From Malacoplasma iowae (GTDB lineage: Bacteria; Bacillota_I; Bacilli_A; Mycoplasmatales; Mycoplasmoidaceae), in the NCBI RefSeq assembly GCF_900660615.1, contig NZ_LR215023.1:868001-932000 (forward strand): a DNA stretch of 64,000 nt, read 5' to 3'. Each line of letters opens with the position of its first letter. Within the stretch, counting starts at the first letter, position 1. Position numbers and translations under genes: made by a program. The notes below the pieces were generated by a model that made no database searches, had not been told where the DNA came from, and saw nothing but the letters and a program-made list of their open reading frames with translations. This document shows, in pieces, positions 21,794 to 55,684 of the stretch.

Positions 21794-22501
21794 TTATTTT
21801 GAAACTTGTACTACAGCATGCTTCACAACTCTATCATGAAGTTTATAACCTTTTTTAATAACTTTAGTTACAAGATTAGGTTTTGTTCCTTTAACTTCAA
21901 CAGTTTCAAAAGGGTCCATAGTGTTTGGGTCAAATTCATCATTTACATTAATTTGAATTTCTTTAACTCCATTATCTGAAAGATAATTTTTAAACATACT
22001 ACTAAACATTGCAAAACCTTTTAAATAGTTTTGAATTTCAGGATTATTAGGTGAGTTGTTAACTGCTAATTCAAAATTGTTAATGATGTCTATTAAATCA
22101 ACAATTTTGTCTTTTAAAGCATACTTTTTAATTTCAAAAACTTCTTTTTCAAATTTTATTTGATATTCTTTAATTTTTTCATCAAGTCTTAATTGTGCTT
22201 CTTTAGCTTTGTCGTTTACTTTAATTACAAGAGTTTTATTAAGATCTTGAATTTGGTTTTCCAAGTTTTTAATTGATTGCTTTTTTGTTTCAAGTTCTTT
22301 CTTTAGATTTGTTATTTCTATTTGTAGTTCATTTACTTTATCATTTTTAATATCTTTTATACTTAAATCTTTTTTAATGCTTAAATCTTTTTTAATTTCA
22401 TGATTTGGATTGTTTTGTTGATTTGTTTCAGTATTTGTCGATTGTTCTGTTTTTTTTGTAAAATTTTTGTCTTTACCAAAATCTTTTTGTTTATTTTCCA
22501 T
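21794..22501 (-). CDS. grpE: Nucleotide exchange factor GrpE
   Basis: A 235-aa GrpE. The N-terminal 60 residues are polar and contain a short tandem repeat (KKDLSI twice), followed by the long GrpE coiled coil and the C-terminal beta domain ending with KKGYKLHDRVVKHAVVQVSK, the family signature. It releases ADP from DnaK. It follows dnaJ by 2 bases, an uncommon order; no dnaK or hrcA lies nearby. Confidence 0.94.
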   Translation of the reverse strand: MENKQKDFGKDKNFTKKTEQSTNTETNQQNNPNHEIKKDLSIKKDLSIKDIKNDKVNELQIEITNLKKELETKKQSIKNLENQIQDLNKTLVIKVNDKAKEAQLRLDEKIKEYQIKFEKEVFEIKKYALKDKIVDLIDIINNFELAVNNSPNNPEIQNYLKGFAMFSSMFKNYLSDNGVKEIQINVNDEFDPNTMDPFETVEVKGTKPNLVTKVIKKGYKLHDRVVKHAVVQVSK

Positions 22502-22503
22502 AA

Positions 22504-23667
22504 TTACTTAATCTCCTTTTTAGCCTCATTTAAATATTTTTTTATTTCATCATTTGTTCTTTCAGCAAACTTAGATAATTCTTTTAATTCTGATTGGCTA
22601 TATTTTTTAGGACTTGTTAATTCTATAACCGCAAATAAATCACCATTACTTCCAAATCTCTTATTTGATTTAAAACCATGACCTGAAATTGTAATAATAT
22701 CATTATTTTTAGTACCAGCTTTTATTTTGATGGTTTTAATTCCATGAGGTGTTGGAACATCAATTTCTCCACCAACTATAGCTTGAACTGGGTCAACTTT
22801 TGCTATTACATAAATATTATTATTTTTTCTTTCAAATATTTTTGATGGAGTTACTTCTATATTAATAAATAGATCACCTTTTTTACCATTTATTAAATTC
22901 CCTTGTCCACTTACAACAAGTGTTTCACCTGAATTTACTCCACTTGGAATTTCAACATTTAAAGTTACTTTTTCTTTTTTATATTTTTGGCCTTTACAAT
23001 CATGACATTTTTTAATTACAATTTTACCTTCACCATGACAATCTGGACAAACTGATTGTGATTGAACTATACCAAGCATAGTTCTTTTCCTTGTGAATAC
23101 AAACCCTTGTCCCTTACAAGTTTCACATGTTTTTACAGAATCTGGTTCATTTGTATTTCCAGTACCATGACAAGTTTTACAATCAACATTTATTTGGTAA
23201 TCAATTTTTTTACTAGTACCAAGAACTGACTCTACAAAGGTAATGCTTACATTTAATAATAAATTAGCGCTAACGCTTTCTTGGGATTGTTTTCTTCCAA
23301 ATCCACCAAAGCCACCAAATCCGCTAAAGGCATTGAATATATCCTCAAACCCGTTAGTATATCCATCTTCATCGCCCATACCACCACCAAAGAATTGGTT
23401 AAATATATCAAATGGATCAAAACCTTGTGAATGGAAACCTTGAGAATTTAATCCATCATGGCCAAATCGATCATATGTTGCTTTTTTGTTTGGGTCACTC
23501 AAAACTTCATAGGCTTCGTTAACTTCTTTAAATTTTTCTTCAGCGTCAGCGGCCTTATTTCTATCTGGGTGATATTCCATAGCTTTTTTTCTAAAAGCTC
23601 TTTTAATATCAGATTCACTTGCGTTTTTACTTATTCCCAATACTTCATAATAATCCCTTTTAGACAT
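22504..23667 (-). CDS. dnaJ: Chaperone protein DnaJ
   Basis: A full type I J-protein of 387 aa: J-domain with HPD in [10 protein letters not shown], Gly/Phe-rich linker (about 75-125), four CxxCxGxG zinc repeats ([32 protein letters not shown]; the last lacks the final Gly) and the C-terminal substrate domains. No TGA codon. It stimulates DnaK ATPase and delivers clients. Upstream lies a CIRCE-like operator, so HrcA heat-shock control is expected. First gene of dnaJ-grpE. Confidence 0.97.
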
Positions 23668-23718
23668 ACTGAATACCCCATTTATTTATGTATAACTATA
23701 TATATTATAAATTATATA

Positions 23719-23745
23719 TTATCACACTAATATCGAAAGTGCTAA
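23719..23745 (-). promoter_or_regulatory. CIRCE-like HrcA operator of dnaJ-grpE
   Basis: TTATCACAC-N9-AAGTGCTAA, matching the CIRCE consensus TTAGCACTC-N9-GAGTGCTAA at 7 of 9 and 8 of 9 positions with the exact 9-base spacer. It sits just upstream of -10-like TATAAT boxes (23704-23709 or 23711-23716), about 50 bases before the dnaJ start. Confidence 0.85.
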
Positions 23746-48427: not shown

Positions 48428-50296
48428 TTATTCATTAAACTCTTTTGGTGGTTGGTTTGGAATCCAACCAGTTAAGCTTTGATAGTGATTTTTAAAATCT
48501 ATTGTTAAAAATCATTTATATCAATTTGATTCTAAAGTTGTAGACTCAAAATTTTTAATAATTTCTGATTTTGCTTTGTCTTTATTTTCTTCATAATAAA
48601 TTTTTCAATCTCTATAAAGAAGATATTGTTCTAATAAATAATCTTTGTATAAATAGCCATACAAAGGGTCACTTGCTCCAGGTTTGTGTGATCAATCTTC
48701 ATATTTGTAACCAACAACACTTTCAAACAAATGAGGAAAAATTGACATTTCAAAATATATTTCTTTGAATAAATCAAATTGTCTAATATATTTATTTGCT
48801 AAATAAATTTTAAACATATTTGAATCTTTTGCTTTTAATCAATATTCTTTTTCAATTAAATCTAGTTTATAAATCAATTCTTCTTCAGTAAGCATAGAAA
48901 ATTTATTTTTTAATTTATCACCAAGAAAAACTAATCCATTAATTTTTTCATCATCTTTATAAGCATTCAATATTTCTATACTTTTATTTATTTTCATATC
49001 ATTGTTAAATAATGAATTATTAAAGACATTAATAAATTTAGATTCTTCTGAAAAAATATAATTTTCTATAAAGAAATTGCTTTTATAAGCATTAAATTCA
49101 ACAGCATAACATATTTTATTGAATATATTTTTTAACATTTCATTTTTTTGTTCATTACTTAAGTTATTTTCACTTGTGCCTTCAATTTTATAGATTAATT
49201 CTTTAATATATTGATCTATTGCAAACTGCCCCTTTTGTTTAACTTCTTCAGGTAAATAATTATTAATTTTGGATTCATCAAATCTTTTATCTGCTTTCTT
49301 ATCTCAATCACCAATTTTATTTACAACAAAATCACCTTTCAATTTTATTTGTGATTTGTCATAAGAATCATCAAAAATTGGTTTTGTTAAAATAACTCAA
49401 TTATATCAATATGAATTTGTAGTTAAAGGACTTATTCCATATCAATTTAAACAATCAACAATTAAACTTATTTCTTTATATGTTCTATATAAAATAACAA
49501 TTTTATCATCATCATAAATATTATTGTTTTTCATTGAAGCCAAAGATTCTAGATGCTTACCATAAGATATATTAAAATTTTTTTCATATAAATATGGAAA
49601 AATAGCTATTTCTTTTTTGTATTTATAAATAATATCTAAAAAACCAAAAGTATTAAAAAATTGAGATATTTTTTGGTAGTTTTGTTGGGGAATATCTTTT
49701 GTTTTGATTCATACATTTTCTAATTTAGAAACAACATCACCAATTCCTTTTTCGTTTAAAGATTCTGTATATCTTGCCTCAGCTATTGTTCTTTCTTTTG
49801 TTATATTCATTATTTGGTTTCAATTAGAGGTAGAAAATCTTTGATCTAAAATATTTTTATTAAATTCGTTTAAAGCTTCTTCAAATGTTAATTCATCATT
49901 TAAAACTTTTGTAGATAAACTTTTAATAAGTTTAACTCTTTGGTTTCAAACAGTATTAATTAGCGAAATAGTTTTTTCATAATTTTGATAAACTTCTTGT
50001 TTACTCATTTGATTTAATTCATTTTTAAATTCCATTAAATCTTTTTTGAAATAATTAATTTCATCTTGATTTGGAATATTTTTTTCACCAAAGAAAATTT
50101 TCTCTTGTTCACTATAATTTTTAAAGTTTATAGGATTATTATTTTCAATATCATTATTAGAACCATTTTCAGGTTTAGATGGGATTTGTTGGTTATTGTT
50201 TGTTGTTGAATGATTTGAACAAGATAACAAACTTGTTGATATTGCAATTAATGGTACAAATGAAAATAACAACAAAAATGTTTTTTTATATCGCAT
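48428..50296 (-). CDS. Lipoprotein
   Basis: A 622-aa lipoprotein. Signal peptide MRYKKTFLLLFSFVPLIAISTSLLSC with the lipid-attachment Cys at position 26 (SLLSC). After a short Asn/Ser linker the rest is mainly helical with many aromatic residues; about fifteen Trp codons (mostly TGA). It has no C-terminal membrane helix, so it is surface-exposed by its lipid anchor. No family recognised. Single gene with its own terminator. Confidence 0.85.
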
Positions 50297-50465: not shown

Positions 50466-50825
50466 TTAGATTAAAAAGAATGGGTGGAAAATAGATTTAA
50501 GGATATCTTCATTTAATAATTTGTTTATTGATTTGTCACTATTTTTGTTTACAAAATCAATATATTCTTCTTTTGTAACATCTTTATCATTTATTTTAAA
50601 TACTTCTTCAACTTTACCGTTGATTGATTTATATGAATGAGAGCATTCTCAATTGTTTTTAGAAAATTCTATATCTTTGATTTCTTCAGATATATTTTTC
50701 AATTCTGTTTTTAATTGATTGATAGTTTTAATTAGTTCATCATTTAAATCATTAGAAGTAACAAGATTAACAAGTTGTGCTTGCAACTTCCTTTCTTTAA
50801 TTTTTAACTCATTGATTTTATTCAT
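50466..50825 (-). CDS. Small CIRCE-controlled protein of unknown function
   Basis: A 119-aa gene (MNKINELKIKERKLQAQ...) with one TGA-Trp in the middle that hides it from standard-code scanning. The first about 60 residues form a charged heptad-like helix; the second half is mixed, ending DILKSIFHPFFLI. It has a perfect AAGGAGG ribosome site 7 bases before the ATG, a strong promoter and CIRCE operator upstream, and a terminator downstream, so it is its own transcription unit. No signal peptide or membrane helix. No family recognised. Expected to be repressed by HrcA and induced by heat. Confidence 0.82.
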
Positions 50826-50847
50826 TTTAATACCTCCTTGTACAAAT

Positions 50848-50888
50848 ACTATAACACTATTTTAGCACTTTGTAAATGAGAGTGCTAA
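50848..50888 (-). promoter_or_regulatory. CIRCE operator and sigma-A promoter of the small gene
   Basis: The CIRCE (50862-50888) is TTAGCACTT-N9-GAGTGCTAA, 8 of 9 and 9 of 9 positions matching. It overlaps the -35 box TTTACA (50871-50876), which is 17 bases from the -10 box TATAGT (50848-50853); the ribosome site follows. HrcA binding here would block RNA polymerase directly. This is the best CIRCE match in the window. Confidence 0.93.
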
Positions 50889-50920: not shown

Positions 50921-53900
50921 TTAATTTGCTATTGTTTTCTTTAAGTTTGTTTTCTTGAAAAGAATAATAATGATAAAGAAATTAGAAAGTAATATTATAA
51001 ACAACGATAAAGCACCATAAATATAAGGTAATCAATTAATAACTGAAGATATAAATATATTAGATAAGCTATAAACTGCATATTGTAATGTAAAAATAAT
51101 TACTATTAACAATATTAATCCGATAAGTAAAGATAAAGCAAGAATTGGTATATATGAAAATAATATACTATTAATATTTTCTTTATTTGAATAACCTAAT
51201 GTTTTTAATATAGAAATCATTGTTTTAATTTCGCTCATCATAATAGATGTCATAACTAAAATCATAATGACAACGATTGGAACAAAGATTGATATTCCCA
51301 ATGCTTGAACTGTTTTTATGCTTTGGAATAAATTGACATACACTTGTTGTGTTGTTAAATAACTATCAACATTTGTTAAAACTATATTTATTGGACTATT
51401 AGTAAATAAAGAAATTAAATAACTTGCAAGATCTGTTCTATCAAAATATTTATTTAATATCTCATTTTCTAATTTTTTTCTATCTTCTGGTAATACCAAT
51501 TCTGGGTTTTCACTAATAATGTTATTTAAAACTAATGATTTACCAGAATAGTCATTATTACCATGATATGTTTGTTTTAGAAATTCTGCTAATGTTATGT
51601 TATCAACTTTGCTTATCATTGGTCATAAACCAAATAAACTATAAAAGTTAATATTGTTTCTTAAAAAGAAAGTATTGCTATCATCAGTAATTACTGCATT
51701 AAATGGAATTTTATTTTGCTCTTCTAAATTATTAGCATAATATTTTACAACACTTTTTTTGTTATTATCATAACCATAATGTGATATTACTTTTCCACCA
51801 GTAAGATCATTATCGCTTTCGTTTTGTTTAGTTAAATTTGTTAATTTATTAGCAAGATTTTGACTTACATAAAATTCTTCACCAAAAGAGATAGATGATA
51901 TACCAACAACTTTTAATTTATATTGATGATTAAGTTGCTTGTTTGCAACTTTTTCAGAATATCTAAAATAAGAATTTAAAACATCAACAGTGACTGTATC
52001 ACCAACTTTTAAATTATATTTATATGCTGCACCATTATTTATTATTAAAGCATCTTCATCATTTAATAATTCAAATATCTCTTTACTATCATTATTTTTT
52101 AATTGGATGTATTTTGATCCAGGTTTAATACCAATTAAATTTATTGATTTAACCTTTGAATTATTTGCTAAGAAATTTGGTTTTGCTTCAACAATAGTTA
52201 GTGTTTCAGTGTTTTCATCATATGGAATTATTCCATAAGATAATTTAACATCTTTTGAACTTAATTCTTCATCACCATAAACTTTACCAATAAAATTCAA
52301 AAATTCTTGTTTGAATCCAATTTTTTCTGGAACTATTGTATCGCTAATGACCGCTTTAGAATTAACACTATATAAATTTGTTTGATCGTCATAAATTATA
52401 AATTTGTATTTTTCCAAATCAGCTCTTATAAATTTATTTTTAGAATCATAAATTGATTTTAAGAAAAATTGGTCTTGAGTTTCAGCTCTAGATATAATTT
52501 CTGGAGGTAAAGATGATTTAACAAACTCTCATACATTCAATCCAACTTGTGGAATTTCAATATCAAATAATCACTTACTAAATACAGCATTCATCAAAAA
52601 TGTTGGATCATATTGTAAAGCTAAATTTGCATTATATGATGGTAACATAATGTTTGCATAATATAACGGTCTATTTTTCTCATCAAGTTTTTGATTTCCA
52701 GTTACTGGATCAAATACTTTTAATTGTTCAATTTTATATGGATAACTATATTTTGAAACATTAGTATAAGTTTTACCATTAAGGGTTCCATCATATATTG
52801 GATAAATACCATTATCAACATCAGTAAATCCTAAATTAGAATATTTTTCTAATTTATATAAACCACCTTGTTCTGTTGGTGTATTTAAATAAAAACTATA
52901 TGCATATTTTTTATTTAAAGATGTTAATTGTGTTGATTGTGTGAATTTTTCTGGAACACTAAATGCTATTGAAATTAATGACAAACCAGTTGAACACAAT
53001 ATTGTATAAAACACAAGTCTTCATACATTACACAATGATAAACTTAATCTAAATTTAAATAGGGGACCAACTTTTATAATATTATTTTTTAATAAAGATA
53101 AAGCTTTACTTACTTTTATTTCTGTTGTTTGAGCAATTAATTCATTAATTGGTTTTCTAAAAGTAATTTTTAATATTAAATAAGTAAATATGAAAAATAT
53201 TGCAAAGATAATAAGACAACCAGCAAAGAAACCTATAATACTAAAAGGTAAAAATGTTGTATTAATAAACCAGAATGGAGAAACAACTGAAAAAAATACA
53301 CTTTGTAAAAAGAAAGCTATTATATAACCTATTGTTCCAGATAGTATAGAAACAACTAAACCAAAAAAACTAACAGCTAAACATATTTTAAAATTACTAA
53401 AACCGTTTGCTTTAATGATAGCAAGTTGAACTTGGTTTTTTGTAATATAGGATTTTATTAATAAATAAGCCAAATACAATCCTAATGCTATAAGAATTAC
53501 AATAATAGTTAAAGCAACAATAGTTACATAAAAAGAAATTGATTTTGGCAATGATATTCTAAATGACAAAATACTTTGACTGGATTTAAAATCACTTGAA
53601 TCTACAACTAACTTTTCACTTGAACTTTGGTTAAATATTGCTTTATATTGATTATTAAAATTATCGATACTTATTTTTTTAGTATCAATCTGTGTGGAAT
53701 AATAATCATTTTGAAATATTGTTGGGACTGTTGATAATATTGTTCTATAACCTTGATCATTAACATATATAAGCATTTCGTTATTTGCATTTATAATTAA
53801 GTTTTCTAACGAATATGAAGGATATGCCATTTCTGGAGATAAACCAGAACCAATGATTATAAATTTATATGTGTTAATCTCAATCATGTATTTTGAATCA

Positions 53901-55684
53901 ATTGTTGCTATTCATTTTTTAAAATCAACACTAAAATTTTTAATATTAGATAATTCAACATTATCTCAAGCATCTTTCAACTGATTTCATTTATTAACTC
54001 ATTGTTCTCATTGTTCAATTGGTAAATAATCTTTATTTAATGCTTTTAAATATTTGTCTGGGACAATAACAGCATTGGCATATATGTTTTCTATAAATAA
54101 ATTAGTTTCTAATTTAACTTGAGAAATTCCAAATAAATAATTAAATTTTAATTTAATTCCTTGTTGGTTAGTAGTAACAAATTTTGATAATTCATATTCT
54201 GGTTGGTAAACAGCAAATATATATTTGTAATCACCATAATTTATAGCTTCATTATTATTAAAATTATTTATTATCTTTTCGATTTTTCTTCCAACAACAG
54301 GATCAATTGAATTTAAGTTATTTCGAGAATTTAACATTAGTTGAAGTAAGTTAAACATGAATTTGTTTTTTGAAACAAAATATTCAGTAGGTTTAGTTAA
54401 ATTATCGACAACGTCAAGATATTTTGTACTATCAACTAATTTGCTACCACCAGTATAAACAATTTTATTAACTGAGTTGTTTTCTTTATTTGCAACTATG
54501 TAGTTAAATGATGTTGATTGTTCACTTGTTGAAAAAGATTTTTCATTACTGTAATTAATATTATTTTCTTTTGCAAATTTATCAAAATAATCTTCAACAC
54601 GATTTTTAAATATAGATAATATATATTCTTCTCTTTGGTCAACTAAACTTTCAAGAATTAATTTTTTATAAGTATTGTATTTTTGACCATTTACAATTCC
54701 GTCTCAATATCCCTCAATTGCCAAAATAGTAGTTTTAATTCATTCGTTTTTTAATAAAAAATTTCCATGTAAAATATCATTTTTTTCTTGTGGAGTAAAA
54801 ACTGTTTCCAACATTAATAATTGAAGATTTGATAAAGAAGTTAAATCTAAATTAAAAGTATAAAAAGGATTCTCTTCAACTTTAGTGTTTTTATATAAAA
54901 CATCATACAAATCAGCATCTTTTGAAACTGCTAATAAATTTGGATCAACATTAGTTGGTTTTAAATAAACGTTTGGCGAACTTATATTAATTGCTAAAGT
55001 AGTTGCTGAATTTGTATCAAACTCATTGAAATTAGCTCTACTTGCTCTATATGTTGTTTCTAGCAATTGGAAATTATCTTCAATTTTTTTAGTTGATGGA
55101 TTATAGTTTCCAATTATTTTATTGTTTCCAAATTCATCTTTACCAAAAATTAAATTCTCAGGAAAAAATATTTGATGCCCACCTTGATTACTCATTTTTC
55201 AACCAAGTGCATTTCATTCACTATAATTGGAAGTTGAAATATTTTTTAAAGTATATAAAACATCACCATATTCATCTTTACTTTGTTCACCAGGAGTTGC
55301 TCTAATAATCCCATTTTTTCTAGATCATGGATTAGTATTAACAGTTGGAGAAGAAAAGTCAGAAGGTTTGTATGGAAAGATAATATTAGATTCTTTTTCT
55401 TTATAAACAAAATTTGAAACAGTTATGTAGTTATTAATAGGTTTTAAATTATTAAAGTCATTGGTGACATATGTTGGTTTTCTTAAATCATATTTCTTTT
55501 CAATAAAACTATTTGAACTATTACCATATCTATTCAAATTTAATATTGAATCATTAGTATTTTTATTTAAATAAAGTAAGCTAAATGAACTAAATATTAT
55601 ACATATAGCAATAAATACTAATGAAATAATCAAAAACAAAGAATTCTTAAAAGATTTTAAGACCTGCTTAATTAACTGTTTCAT
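50921..55684 (-). CDS. Giant FtsX-type ABC permease
   Basis: A 1587-aa protein read across many TGA-Trp codons in one frame. It has an N-terminal membrane helix (SLFLIISLVFIAICIIFSSFSLLYL), a large extracytoplasmic domain of about 650 residues, an FtsX core of about four helices (residues about 710-890), a second large outer domain and a second FtsX core with three helices at the C-terminus. That is the MacB/FtsX permease duplicated, similar in size to the MG468-type proteins of mycoplasmas. No ATP-binding subunit gene lies next to it. It probably handles lipoprotein or lipid/peptide traffic across the single membrane. Confidence 0.88.

Follow-up and report, generated by a model that had tools for sequence, protein, structure and literature searches.

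Mollicutes possess few transcription factors, the most conserved of which is HrcA according to a survey of their regulators (PMC5138195), where functional CIRCE operators are said to carry no more than two mismatches. In M. gallisepticum, clpB, dnaK, lon and dnaJ are members of the HrcA regulon, and heat raises the CIRCE genes (PMC4245973), while the regulon of M. pneumoniae includes groEL/ES, pepA and pip in addition (PMC7737663). Known HrcA targets in Mollicutes are thus nearly all chaperones and proteases, as the original prediction for the locus described here had assumed. The same holds in the other genera of the family, where all 23 near-perfect CIRCE loci inspected (L030-L040 and L047-L058, sampled from the full set of such sites at one per genome, each target being recognised from the beginning of its translated ORF) front dnaK, clpB, dnaJ or lon. 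For M. penetrans and M. iowae, no paper on the HrcA regulon was found in a literature search confined to papers outside subscription, and neither species is mentioned in the main text of the regulator survey (PMC5138195).

The window analysed here, a stretch of 64,000 nucleotides from Malacoplasma iowae whose source contig comprises 1,278,574 bases at 25.1% GC, carries on its minus strand an ORF of 119 amino acids (50825-50466) preceded by TTAGCACTCTCATTTACAAAGTGCTAA (50888-50862, minus), a CIRCE with a 9-base spacer that matches 17 of 18 arm positions and so has one mismatch. Operator sequence, spacing and placement over the promoter are those of the Mollicutes HrcA/CIRCE regulon (PMC4245973 and PMC5138195), the presence of HrcA in the genome and conservation across species being further points of likeness, whereas the target belongs to an unnamed protein family and has a better operator than the chaperone genes of the genomes concerned. 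Two CIRCE-like sites with up to three mismatches occur in the window, this one and that of dnaJ at 23719, against approximately 0.01 expected. The promoter scan returned TTTACA-17-TATAGT with an extended -10 TG, the -35 hexamer (50876-50871) lying inside the CIRCE and the -10 hexamer (50853-50848) nine bases downstream of it; the near-perfect operator over the -35 box was therefore described correctly. Promoter-like sites in this AT-rich stretch are no more frequent than in shuffled sequences (five, compared with a mean of 8.8), and the promoter assignment accordingly relies on position and on similar hexamers in the Malacoplasma genomes G009 and G001. The predicted ribosome-binding site is likewise present, AAGGAGG (50839-50833) being followed 7 bases further on by the ATG (50825-50823). 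Just past the stop codon lies a hairpin (50455-50422) that folds much more stably than shuffled sequences (z -6.6), but it has only a short T-tract and does not appear in the strict terminator scan, so that the gene's own terminator, predicted from the outset, is plausible rather than textbook. The ORF does contain one in-frame TGA, read as Trp59 in code 4, but annotation in code 4 overlooks nothing on account of this ordinary tryptophan, and the emphasis earlier placed on it is trivial; no TGA occurs in the matched frame of the homologues in G002, G003, G006 and G007.

HrcA is encoded in the same genome (PF01628 above cut-off, G000:740882-741553), although GroEL (PF00118) is undetected there. 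When sites with three mismatches or fewer are ranked across the 1.28-Mb genome, the best CIRCE is that of the 119-aa gene with one mismatch, followed by clpB with two and by dnaJ and dnaK with three each. The degenerate dnaJ site (23719-23745), assigned to the same regulon, precedes dnaJ (22504-23667, minus), with grpE directly downstream (21797-23745 in all, minus). At dnaK, one arm of the CIRCE is degenerate throughout the genus, with three mismatches (L079, at G000:C1:980236-980262, L080, L083, L085, L070, L073 and L077), and because the limit of two mismatches is exceeded, dnaK may no longer be under HrcA control in Malacoplasma. By the same rule, the 119-aa gene and clpB would be the two responsive genes of their genome, and in G002, where the homologue of the 119-aa gene is the sole gene with a CIRCE of fewer than three mismatches, it would be the only one. 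A fifth site in the M. iowae genome, also with three mismatches (L003:1501-1527; G000:C1:418781-418807), lies about 60 bp ahead of an FtsX-like permease ORF resembling the window protein at 50921-55684; the reversed-pattern control also gives one site, and this one may be due to chance.

The gene is not the orphan it was first taken for, belonging instead to a small family at the level of the genus, to which a single, more distant homologue can be added. Homologues were found in seven of ten Malacoplasma genomes with E 2.3e-8 or better; the profile search returned the genus members at E <1e-40 with a profile that itself includes them, and an alignment-based contig scan found five loci, where a one-protein scan had found nothing. 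Six of the seven holders (the window, G009, G001, G002, G006 and G007) have a CIRCE matching 17 or 18 of 18 arm positions at the gene, in each case the strongest in the genome and in G001 a perfect one. The same CIRCE-gene pair, sought in relatives, is thus kept in five other species, with differing gene neighbourhoods. Between lineages, 16-18 of the 18 arm positions are kept, against 3-6 of the 9 spacer positions and 11-19 of the 40 bases upstream. The flanking genes are an FtsX-like permease and a lipoprotein in the window and in G009 (which also has transposase remnants), a GNAT-like and a DegV-like ORF in G001, and a divergent membrane-protein gene in G002, G006 and G007. The coding sequence is under purifying selection as well: dN is 0.15 and dS 1.11 between the window gene and G009 (dN/dS about 0.14), and of the 12 differences that separate G006 from G007, 11 fall at third codon positions, with one non-synonymous change in 179 codons.

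These comparisons bear on the simplest alternative, that an AT-rich ORF happens to lie beside a fortuitous inverted repeat. Promoter-like hexamers are indeed common in the stretch, and sites with three mismatches do arise by chance at the scale of a genome, as the single hit of the reversed-pattern control illustrates. A 17/18 match where 0.01 sites are expected even at 15/18, an operator-gene pair conserved in six species and an ORF under purifying selection nevertheless refute coincidence, which we regard as extremely improbable. Since gene and site recur together in five relatives, there is every likelihood that the 119-aa gene is genuine and encodes a heat-shock protein not studied before, the candidate status originally proposed being the best reading of the sequence comparisons, and its control by HrcA is very likely on sequence grounds. 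Counting against the main reading are the G003 homologue, which has no CIRCE, the distant homologue in G264, which also lacks one, and the draft genomes G004, G005 and G008, in which the gene was not detected.

Taken as a whole, the locus is best read as encoding an HrcA-repressed, small cytoplasmic stress protein specific to the Malacoplasma lineage, probably an accessory chaperone, to which we assign a probability of roughly 0.52. HrcA would occupy 50862-50888 at normal temperature and so block the -35 region; under heat or misfolding stress, HrcA would become inactive and the 119-aa gene would be released, as would clpB and, to a lesser extent, dnaK and dnaJ. The 119-aa product, predicted as a coiled-coil hairpin with a small beta-hairpin/helix unit, would then bind unfolded chains or assist DnaK or ClpB. 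A role in proteostasis is held with moderate confidence because the genes that CIRCE marks elsewhere in the family serve proteostasis; the accessory-chaperone function itself, based on regulon and architecture, has about even odds. The regulatory device is known, and to judge from the libraries and papers searched, the target family is unnamed and unstudied, though the protein may have been listed earlier as a 'hypothetical protein with CIRCE', for example in supplementary tables or subscription papers. If the reading is true, near-minimal cells have a new heat-shock protein family, HrcA control can be tested in species without GroEL, and Malacoplasma gains a stress gene that can be assayed directly.

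Neither sequence nor fold connects the protein with a chaperone, which also weighs against the main reading. Searches of Pfam, NCBIfam, PHROGs and PDB sequences gave scattered sub-threshold matches at most, Foldseek runs with two models gave no match with E <0.2, and a second structural aligner with the same number of models gave generic helical hairpins only; the absence of a recognisable family, remarked on from the start, was thus borne out, and no catalytic family emerged from the family searches. The AlphaFold2 model of the window protein (mean pLDDT 76.5, pTM 0.46, confidence low past residue 97) has helices at residues 3-22 and 29-56, strands at 61-68, 71-78 and 81-83 and a further helix from 85, and these elements recur in a second AlphaFold prediction, made for the member in G006. 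The structure prediction that had been called for thus shows a helical hairpin followed by a beta-hairpin and a helix, but no fold match that could be used. Residues invariant in the genus belong either to the helical hairpin or to the motif C-x(7)-NG-x(8)-N-x(3)-V-x(4)-Y.

Several described proteins resemble this architecture in part. GrpE is also small, with a charged helical first half and membership of a CIRCE regulon, but the protein has no PF01025 match, and a separate grpE is present in all seven genomes with a gene of the 119-aa type, so replacement of GrpE was rejected. A small heat-shock protein of the HSP20 kind was rejected as well, with no alpha-crystallin profile match and, rather than a beta-sandwich, only three short strands in the model. 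Prefoldin shares the succession of helix, beta-hairpin and helix with part of the model, and its coiled-coil hairpin can be superposed on the model (2zdi_C, Z 8.2, rmsd 1.8 over 60 residues), a match limited to the generic N-terminal hairpin and tied with many unrelated chains. Foldases of the SurA_N or PrsA type have a look-alike motif, NG..V[ST]..EY, at a strand-turn-helix, but the best SurA_N_2 match (E 0.066) is far under the cut-off and the protein has no signal peptide; this likeness was dropped as evidence because SMC proteins carry the same motif. Hsp33, a redox-controlled holdase, recalls the Cys-x-Cys and His-rich tails of four other Malacoplasma members, whereas the window protein lacks such a tail and contains a single cysteine, and neither a profile match to Hsp33 nor its CxC...CxxC zinc site was found.

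In Bacillus, GroEL plays the part of an HrcA partner that tunes the activity of the repressor. The 119-aa protein could conceivably do the same, stabilising or inactivating HrcA and for that reason needing the tightest operator, an idea that fits the strength of its CIRCE within the regulon of six genomes. GroEL (PF00118) is undetected in the genome of the window as well as in G001, G007 and G009, and each of these four holds a gene of this type, but G002, G003 and G006 have both, and the association (4/4 versus 3/6) is not significant, comes from several incomplete genomes and involves too few of them to mean much. HrcA of Campylobacter can moreover be an intrinsic thermosensor (PMC8533110), so that a partner need not exist. 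A feedback role of this kind is accordingly judged improbable. Only slightly less doubtful is a broader proposal in which the Malacoplasma HrcA regulon has been re-centred on a new lineage-specific chaperone as its main target, instead of dnaK or groEL, with this protein also setting HrcA activity where GroEL was lost and Cys/His tails adding metal or redox control in some species.

The company of the gene in the regulon suggests another function, that of an adaptor or regulator which delivers substrates to Lon or ClpB, both ATP-dependent stress machines, without being a chaperone itself. Both clpB and lon belong to the CIRCE regulon in the genus, small co-regulated adaptors are common in bacterial proteolysis, and the C-terminal ends are hydrophobic (FFLI, IFLI, EFFF or KFFF) in five of the seven genus members. 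A strict Lon adaptor is weakened by G001, 93% complete and with a perfect CIRCE on the gene, in which Lon was not detected; the structural match to a ClpB/Hsp104-like protein is a generic helical hairpin only, and related genera hold CIRCE-bearing Lon and ClpB without any gene of the 119-aa type. We consider an adaptor unlikely, to much the same degree as a repressor partner. Searches through the order and class gave one clear homologue, in G264 (L019), with no CIRCE within 1.5 kb of it. Weaker matches to a seryl-tRNA synthetase (L020), a glutamyl-tRNA synthetase-like protein (L021), a pseudouridine-synthase-like protein (L025) and a lipoprotein without Pfam family in G600 were set aside as coiled-coil or motif look-alikes.

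A stress-induced role outside proteostasis, such as an envelope, metal-handling or host-surface function, would be in keeping with the Cys/His-rich C-terminal stretches of the homologues in G002, G003, G006 and G007, absent from the window protein, and with the divergent membrane-protein gene that adjoins the homologue in G002, G006 and G007. The window's own species has neither the tail nor the membrane-protein neighbour, however, its protein sequence has no apparent signal peptide or transmembrane stretch, and all other CIRCE targets examined are proteostasis genes, which makes such a role a little less probable still than an adaptor and leaves the accessory chaperone as the preferred reading. 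The tails, with Cys-x-Cys and His-rich stretches (L009:1465-1998, L010:1321-1860 and L008:1222-1842), are possibly metal-binding.

Some features of the surroundings deserve mention in their own right. Downstream of the 119-aa gene, the window encodes a lipoprotein-like ORF of 622 amino acids (48428-50296, minus) that has no Pfam match and is conserved in G009. The FtsX-like permease gene is full length in the window, while in G009 transposase-like ORFs (L006:499-1406) stand directly before a short remnant of it, the CIRCE and the 119-aa gene having outlived the rearrangement. In G003, a perfect palindrome, TGTAACAT-A-ATGTTACA (L008:1842-1890), occupies the space between promoter and start codon of the homologue and is possibly a different operator.
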